Assembly: GCA_903930515.1 (NCBI GenBank)
Contig: CAIYYW010000160.1
Location: 1 to 5,252 of the forward strand
Direction of reading: 5' to 3'
Origin: an uncultured delta proteobacterium
GTDB taxonomy: Bacteria > RBG-13-61-14 > DRUE01
DNA length: 5,252 nucleotides
The position numbers and the translations under genes are program-made. Of the stretch, positions 3,649 through 5,252 are shown in pieces (within the stretch, counting starts at the first letter, position 1; each line of letters starts with the position of its first letter). The notes under the pieces were generated by a model, which did not search any database, had not been told where the DNA came from, and saw only the letters and a program-made list of their open reading frames with translations.

Positions 3649-4881
3649 TCAGCGCGCGATCGGCTTGAGCATTTCCAAATATGCGTCCAGGCGGTTGCGC
3701 ATAATCTCGGACTGGTAAAGCCGAGGGTCGCCGTGGTCCGTGTCCAGAAGCAGGCCGGGGATGCCGGAGATTTTATGCACCGTCTTCAAAGTGTCCATCA
3801 GCCCGAGCGAAAGGAACCGGCAGGAATGGTCGGAATGAAGCAGGTATCCGTTGAGCTGGTATTGCTTGATCGCGATCGCGATGTCAAAGGAGCGCTCGCG
3901 GATCATCGGGTCGAAAGAGCGGATCAGGTTGGTCGCGTATTGCTCGAGCATCTGGTCCAGGTCGTCTTTGGCTTCAAAGGAAAGCTGGCACCAGGCCCGG
4001 GTGTAATTGTTCGCCACCAGATTGATCTTCCGCTCCATCAGGATCTGGTAAAAATCCCGCATCGCCATCCAGAGCGGCAAGCCGTCCCACCAGAACCGGT
4101 ATTTCTCGCCCGGAACACCCTCAATCCCCCGGCTGATCCGGTCCTTCAACTCTTCCACCAGGTTCCGGTAAAAATCCACCGTGACTTTTTTCCCGCGCTG
4201 GTCAACAATCGGCGCCATCGCCAAATATTGATCAAACAGGGTTAACGGCGCCGGCACTTTTTGCGCCGCGAGCAGCACCATATAAAACAGCTTGGAGGCC
4301 TCGTTGCTCAGCCGCACGGTTTCGCGGAAACGGCTGAGATCAAATTTCTGCCCCAGCTTGTCCTCCAGCCATTGGATCAACTGATACAACTGCTCCTTCA
4401 CATATGTCACCGCGAACTTGTCCGGCGCCGCCCTTAAGCCCCTTCCCTGTCCCGGAATATCCAGCACGAACAGCGGCACATTATACATCCGAGAAAGCTC
4501 TTCAAACCATTTGAATAAGGTGAAGCATTGCGCGCTGGAATAGACGATCAAATCCGGGATCGGGATACCCCCGATCGGGCTTTTCCCCGAAAAACGGTAC
4601 CCCAGGTCGCACCGGGCGTAGCTGCAAATATCAGGCGCGAAACCCCTGGCCTCGGCTGCCTGAGCCGTTTCCAGCGCCATCCGCTTCGCCTGAAGCACCA
4701 CCGCGTGGTTCTCCGGATATGCCGGAAGCGCGTCAAAGGCGTAGATGAACTCAATCGGCCCCAGCGCGTTCAAATACGCGATCTTGGTTCCCTTTTCCTG
4801 CGCCTGCTTCAACCCCACATAGTAATAAAAATTGATCTCCTTCAACTGCTTCAGGGTTTCTATATTTTCAACTTCCGCCAT
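3649..4881 (-). CDS. 2-hydroxyacyl-CoA dehydratase / benzoyl-CoA reductase family subunit (BcrB/HgdB-like)
   Basis: 410 residues, about the usual full length for this family. The N-part has the family pattern 'GPIEFIYAFDALPAYPENHA' (41-60), then 'DICSYARCDLG' (Cys86), 'IPDLIVYSSAQCFTLFKWFE' (Cys119) and 'PLFVLDIPG'. The C-part has 'HSDHSCRFLSLGLMD' (Cys354) and a final 'DPRLYQSEIMRNRLDAYLEML'. Cys86, Cys119 and Cys354 sit where the family's [4Fe-4S] cluster cysteines are expected; Cys91 and Cys298 are additional. Related enzymes are cytoplasmic, act on CoA thioesters (reductive dehydration of 2-hydroxyacyl-CoA, or ATP-driven benzoyl-CoA ring reduction), usually pair two related subunits and need an ATPase activator. 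'PENHA' and 'CSYAR' look closer to the BcrB side. No partner or activator is in the window, so the substrate cannot be named. The ATG at 4881 has no Shine-Dalgarno sequence, and the next internal Met is far inside the conserved domain. Confidence 0.9.
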   Translation of the reverse strand: MAEVENIETLKQLKEINFYYYVGLKQAQEKGTKIAYLNALGPIEFIYAFDALPAYPENHAVVLQAKRMALETAQAAEARGFAPDICSYARCDLGYRFSGKSPIGGIPIPDLIVYSSAQCFTLFKWFEELSRMYNVPLFVLDIPGQGRGLRAAPDKFAVTYVKEQLYQLIQWLEDKLGQKFDLSRFRETVRLSNEASKLFYMVLLAAQKVPAPLTLFDQYLAMAPIVDQRGKKVTVDFYRNLVEELKDRISRGIEGVPGEKYRFWWDGLPLWMAMRDFYQILMERKINLVANNYTRAWCQLSFEAKDDLDQMLEQYATNLIRSFDPMIRERSFDIAIAIKQYQLNGYLLHSDHSCRFLSLGLMDTLKTVHKISGIPGLLLDTDHGDPRLYQSEIMRNRLDAYLEMLKPIAR

Positions 4882-4912: not shown

Positions 4913-4964
4913 TGCAAACCCCTCAGCCCATCGGTTTCTCGTTTTGCTTTTCGCAATTCGTTAA

Positions 4965-5111
4965 GCAGACACTCTTGTCTGCGATTCTGCTTTGAATACT
5001 CCTCTGGGGCGCAGACACTCTTGTCTGTGATTGTTTTGAATACAACCCTGGGTGGGACACTCTTGTAGGGGGCGGGACACTCTTGTAGGGGGCGGGACAC
5101 TCTTGTCCCGC
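4965..5111. repeat. Cluster of five short palindromic repeats with core ACACTCTTGT
   Basis: The core ACACTCTTGT occurs five times. Copy 1 (4965-4982) is GCAGACA-CTCT-TGTCTGC, a perfect 7-bp stem. Copy 2 (5012-5027) is CAGACA-CTCT-TGTCTG, a 6-bp stem extended by a G-T pair. Copy 5 (5092-5111) is GCGGGACA-CTCT-TGTCCCGC, a perfect 8-bp stem. Copies 3 (5054-5069) and 4 (5074-5089) keep the core and left GGGACA arm, but the right arm is TGTAGG, leaving only a 3-bp stem. The array lies in non-coding DNA upstream of the dehydratase gene. Spurious short frames across it give peptides of the 'QECPAPYKSVPP' type, which should not be annotated as proteins. Confidence 0.9.
5054..5109. repeat. 20-bp tandem repeat GGGACACTCTTGTAGGGGGC
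   Basis: Within the palindrome cluster a 20-bp unit starts at 5054, 5074 and 5094. The units at 5054 and 5074 are identical over 20 bases; the third switches to TGTCCCGC after the core and so completes a hairpin. This looks like a local tandem expansion of the repeat's left part. Confidence 0.85.
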
Positions 5112-5252
5112 ATTTGGATACACCCCTCCCGTTAAATTTGCTTTTGCTGTTTCAAGGGCAACTATTTTTTTTTGCCCAGGCGCCAGGGCGATCAAGTAGA
5201 GGCAATGTTGACGCTGAATGGCACTCTGGAGGAGTATTCAGGATCCGGCTCG

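Follow-up and report, generated by a model that had tools for sequence, protein, structure and literature searches.

A tagged hairpin with covarying arms, very probably a REP element, forms a decayed cluster in an uncultured delta proteobacterium

What maintains a short repeated hairpin whose core is constant and whose arms change in sequence yet stay paired? The question was raised by the window, that is, the whole 5,252-nt stretch of DNA analysed here, which is contig C160 of an uncultured delta proteobacterium (assembly of 3.65 Mb in 401 contigs, 93% complete). The initial annotation had described five copies with a shared core, three of them with outer arms that differ and still pair, and had proposed either a REP/REPIN-type element or a structured RNA. 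The description of copies and arms was confirmed. Exact ACACTCTTGT cores lie at 4969–4978, 5015–5024, 5057–5066, 5077–5086 and 5097–5106, compared with none in 200 shuffles of the window. Copies 1 (4965–4982), 2 (5010–5029) and 5 (5092–5111), all on the plus strand, read GCAGACA(CTCT)TGTCTGC, CGCAGACA(CTCT)TGTCTGTG and GCGGGACA(CTCT)TGTCCCGC, with arms CAGACA/TGTCTG in the first two and GGGACA/TGTCCC in the last, which is the final unit of the array and keeps both arms. Their stems have 7–8 bp and their loops are CTCT; folded as single-stranded DNA, they reached −7.1 kcal/mol (z −5.1), −5.8 kcal/mol (z −3.8) and −10.0 kcal/mol (z −5.3), respectively, and the constant core is itself partly paired through the ACA/TGT flanking the loop. 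Copies 3 (5050–5069) and 4 (5070–5089), also on the plus strand, are 20-nt units, AGGGGGCGGGACACTCTTGT, that retain the left arm and the core and have lost the right outer arm; copy 3, folded in the same way, formed no hairpin (z 0.2). The tags of the window copies are not of the GT[AG]G type, being GGGG (just before copy 2) or a degenerate GTTA (4960–4963, before copy 1). Copies 1 and 2 belong to a 44–46-nt unit with a TTTGAATACwCC spacer, and the spacer between them (TGCTTTGAATACTCCTCTGGGG; 4988–5009, plus strand) is seen again between copies at other loci. The cluster is located upstream of a 2-hydroxyacyl-CoA dehydratase-like gene (3649–4881, minus strand; NCBIfam relatives all below the cut-off). 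Because just three copies fold, covariation cannot be demonstrated from the window alone, but the genome-wide copies do reveal it.

The core is not confined to this locus. It occurs 70 times in the window's genome, compared with one occurrence of the reversed control, and the copies fall mostly outside the genes predicted by our own simple gene finder. The wider pattern GACACTCYTGTC matched 72 times in this genome, 39 times in a sister species of the same genus (G001) and twice in a genome of the same order; in a set of 60 genomes searched with GACACTCTTGTC, the other 58 gave at most one match each. As the genome search fixed the ten core bases alone, the arms were not preselected for pairing. 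Counting identical arm pairs once, we found 110 of 144 cells paired in the window's genome, where shuffles averaged 73 and peaked at 90, and 61 of 72 in G001, where they averaged 45 and peaked at 55; these values were reached by none of 2,000 shuffles in either species. These shuffles ignore the relatedness of the copies, which the counting of distinct arms reduces in part, and GACACTCTTGTC, the query that retrieved the G001 copies outside locus L210, sets the first pair in advance. Several Watson–Crick pair types were found per arm position in both species. Thus, the copies are many, dispersed and mainly outside genes, and their arms change while remaining complementary. Neither result that the initial annotation had listed as a refutation, a core limited to this locus or arms that change elsewhere and lose their complementarity, was obtained.

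These properties are those of a REP, and we consider it very probable that the hairpin is a REP element, marked by a GTRG tag and copied by the REP-associated tyrosine transposase (RAYT, an HUH/Y1 enzyme) that recognises it, and that the window holds a decayed cluster of such elements. The element would act as a short single-stranded DNA hairpin with a GTRG-type tag at its 5' side; in relatives, hairpins of this kind flank the RAYT gene and copies lie scattered between genes. The plan, arm-ACA-CTCT-TGT-arm with a CTCC variant, is widespread. A contig scan of 257 billion bases with GCRGACACTCTTGTCYGC returned at least 112 stretches, and the matches listed include Acidobacteriota, Verrucomicrobiota, Ignavibacteria, Hydrogenedentota, Armatimonadetes, Nitrospinales, Victivallaceae and others; the initial annotation's mention of similar repeats in environmental bacterial genomes proved right. 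At this pattern size some hits may be due to chance, against which we set the position of the tag exactly at the foot of the stem. Among the matches listed from other phyla, the tags of 156 hairpins included GTGG (68), GGAG (31), GTAG (21), GTAA (9) and GGAC (9), and the close pairs were head-to-head in 26 cases, tail-to-tail in four and head-to-tail in two, the inverted pairs being 30–142 nt apart. GT[AG]G-type tags predominate among the hairpins of other phyla and of G001, and are present on 9 of 46 in the window's genome. Occurrence is patchy: when 149 genomes were sampled from the phylum to which one acidobacterium (G064) belongs, 50 contained GACACTCYTGTC, with five or more matches in a handful. 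G064 itself, selected for being a hit, has 226 matches, many as inverted pairs about 100–145 nt apart. A separate array in another genome, at L319 (G140:C60, ~665–831), consists of five GTGG-tagged copies arranged head-to-tail with a 39-nt period.

The linked Y1 transposase that the initial annotation had suggested looking for was found in the sister species and in other phyla. In G001, a gene encoding 152 amino acids (L210:1290–1748) is flanked by hairpins at 1260 (plus strand, CTCC form), 1775 (minus strand) and 1825 (plus strand, CTCA form). Its product scored 86.7 bits against the NCBIfam REP_Tyr_transpos model NF047646 (cut-off 80), a model also passed by proteins from Nitrospinales (L194) and from an acidobacterium (L121). 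The best solved relative is E. coli TnpAREP (4er8), and the eight sequences compared all keep both HxH histidines and one tyrosine; family model, motif, tyrosine and structural relative all fit membership in the RAYT (TnpAREP) family. Hairpin-flanked RAYTs occur in G001 as well as in Acidobacteriota, Verrucomicrobiota and Nitrospinales, and further RAYT-like genes with this hairpin within 800 nt are present at L146, L079, L178, L222, L275, L276, L279, L280 and L281. Linkage here means position within this distance, and its positional nature counts against the REP account, as does the finding of many RAYTs that lack this hairpin. Two RAYT-like genes, at L192 and L283, are flanked by close variants, with the stem CGCGGACA and loops such as tact, or CACGGACA(ttcc)TGTCCGTG. 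At L307 (G110:C166), two RAYT-like domains (residues 34–184 and 392–542) lie in one long frame, whose openness may be due to chance.

Sister RAYTs carry differing hairpins of like plan, for example GTGG-CGCGGGCG(ccct)CGCCCGCG and GTGG-GACCGGGTC(tcc)GACCCGGTC. This bears on the idea that a regulator or nucleoid protein binds the repeat in double-stranded form and recognises its constant core. Such a site would be consistent with that core and with the 20-bp period, near two helical turns, of some arrays. However, it would have no need for arms that vary freely yet stay complementary, nor would it account for a shared plan with different sequences next to sister RAYTs, and we regard it as highly improbable. 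Returning to the REP reading, a quick tree of 80 RAYT proteins, sampled from genomes that already hold the hairpin, required seven changes of the hairpin label compared with a shuffled mean of 11.4 (none of 500 shuffles was as low); because of this sampling, the tree does not measure how frequent the pairing is. The label is clustered and not confined to one RAYT clade, which also counts against the REP account, and a single origin of the pairing was not supported by this tree. Its starred branches force at least four label changes, which puts the hairpin next to RAYTs at four or more positions on the tree, a less usual situation.

The family looks different in the window's genome. Among 46 hairpins there, the tag is GGGG in 26 and GTGG in nine, all ten close pairs are head-to-tail, and AGGGG follows half-hairpin units at 12 loci. 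The window holds a cluster of five worn tandem REP hairpin copies, comprising derivatives with degenerate tags and head-to-tail pairs only. Because there are no inverted pairs among the copies read, we rejected the REPIN part of the original proposal for this window. Neither did the search of this incomplete assembly reveal a cognate RAYT at E 1e-12; there were weak matches only, including a fragment in a 73-aa frame. Four intact Y1 genes of about 230–330 aa are present, one of which, when scanned with profiles, had a DnaA-like C-terminus; none of the four has a hairpin within 1.5 kb, and they were discarded as partners. The lack of an intact cognate RAYT, the mostly GGGG tags and the absence of inverted pairs count against the REP account in this genome. 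They may be reconciled with it if GTGG has decayed in most copies, copying by the RAYT has stopped or goes unseen, and the arrays, including the 20-nt half-hairpins, grew by slippage or recombination. The RAYT would then have been lost here, or it may sit in an assembly gap.

The arrays could also have a life of their own. Immediately 3' of the copy cluster begins a longer dispersed, mosaic non-coding repeat (5115–5252 in the window, no strand assigned; also L321 and L323), which forms the end of this contig and of many others. It extends over at least about 340 nt and occurs at ~20 places, nearly identical in many of them; we considered that it might contain a transposase gene and found no convincing reading frame. 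Another hairpin family, whose apex is CTTYAG, was observed at L017, L029, L049 and L051 and across the window's genome. Its arms also covary (GCGAC/GTCGC, GCGCC/GGCGC, GCGGC/GCCGC), and its pattern GCGNCTTYAGNCGC matched 74 times in the window's genome and 45 times in G001, with 8 and 9 matches for the reversed control. The window clusters may thus represent an independent minisatellite that spreads inside the larger mosaic repeat, with the hairpin as a mere passenger. That the clusters share spacers and this common 3' repeat, and mix with this other hairpin family, makes this a possibility to be taken seriously, albeit one we think fits less well, since single tagged copies with the same core and covarying arms occur outside clusters in both the window's genome and G001.

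Evidence of gain or loss came from two intercistronic junctions compared between G001 and the window's genome. At one, the element is present in G001 (L264) and absent in the window's genome (L038); at the other, it is present in both (L246, L031). The former documents that the element was gained or lost at one given site, and does not give direction or mechanism. Placement in G001 is far from even. Between co-directional genes, as called by our hexamer-based gene finder, 17 copies are antisense and two are sense; distances of ~10 nt to the upstream stop codon and 22–40 nt to the following start codon are common, with a TTCGTG boundary near the Shine–Dalgarno sequence. Antisense copies of this kind fill short co-directional gaps just before the next ribosome-binding site at loci such as L064, L252, L253, L259, L261, L327 and L334. 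Published uni-REPs are described as near the upstream gene, but their distance to the following one varies (PMC3733652). The G001 pattern could reflect targeting, selection or a replication-strand effect.

The same placement would be consistent with an RNA element. The hairpin could be transcribed between genes and stabilise mRNA, end transcription or tune translation of the next gene, with selection on the RNA keeping its arms paired, and REPs are known to adopt such roles (PMC3733652). In other phyla, however, we found no orientation bias (12 antisense and 16 sense in Acidobacteriota, among the matches listed), and an RNA role leaves the tag, the head-to-head pairs and the RAYT flanking unexplained. 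A search of five sources gave no Rfam match. If the wobble pairs point to either strand, it is the REP strand, the antisense of those mRNAs (18:8, p 0.08), a difference too small for us to accept as proof of the folding strand. As an alternative to the REP reading we therefore find an RNA element unlikely, and the structured RNA offered in the initial annotation was not demonstrated. An RNA role is nevertheless compatible with a REP origin.

In most descriptions, a REP belongs to a single RAYT and to one species or genus. An apex found unchanged next to RAYTs of different lineages and phyla provides a test case for whether a REP follows its enzyme, arises by convergence or passes horizontally, and the antisense position of the G001 copies between genes would allow a direct test of RAYT target choice; the window, with its decayed copy cluster, adds little alone. 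We would venture, with low confidence, that several RAYT lineages from several phyla, although diverged, use one hairpin as a common address, so that it could spread between distant bacteria or persist after its enzyme is lost. Within the genus of the window, it would be set in a fixed orientation before ribosome-binding sites, perhaps by the tag guiding insertion next to the Shine–Dalgarno complement (CTCC), an idea borrowed from guide-sequence work on another RAYT (PMC8266576).

In summary, this is a known kind of repeat whose sequence is shared unusually widely. No published account of it was found, either among 20 of the 37 papers that contain the core (judged by title) or by the longer hairpin sequences. 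A REP family with mostly GTGG tags is reported for Opitutus terrae, and this hairpin may already be listed there. The BIMEs of E. coli are clusters of different REPs. Our clusters resemble them in mixing hairpin repeats and recurring spacers, and differ in being head-to-tail and in containing half-hairpins of 20 nt as well as the CTTYAG-apex hairpins of another family. Like REPINs (Bertels and Rainey, 2011; PMC3116915), the hairpin forms inverted two-copy pairs, but it does so in other phyla only; the copies read from the window's genome and from G001 include no such pair. The nearest descriptions are the GTAG-tagged REPs and REPtrons (Di Nocera et al, 2013; PMC3733652), together with the TnpAREP subclasses (PMC6006769). 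With GTAG REPs it shares a short palindrome with a small loop and complementary stem changes and, in G001 and other phyla, a GT[AG]G-type tag where the 5' arm begins and a position flanking a tyrosine transposase gene; its dimers are likewise mostly head-to-head (in other phyla, among the matches listed). In contrast to them, GGAG and GTAA tags are also common here, the window's genome has degraded tags and head-to-tail pairs, and the apex ACACTC[CT]TGT recurs across several phyla and beside RAYTs of several lineages.
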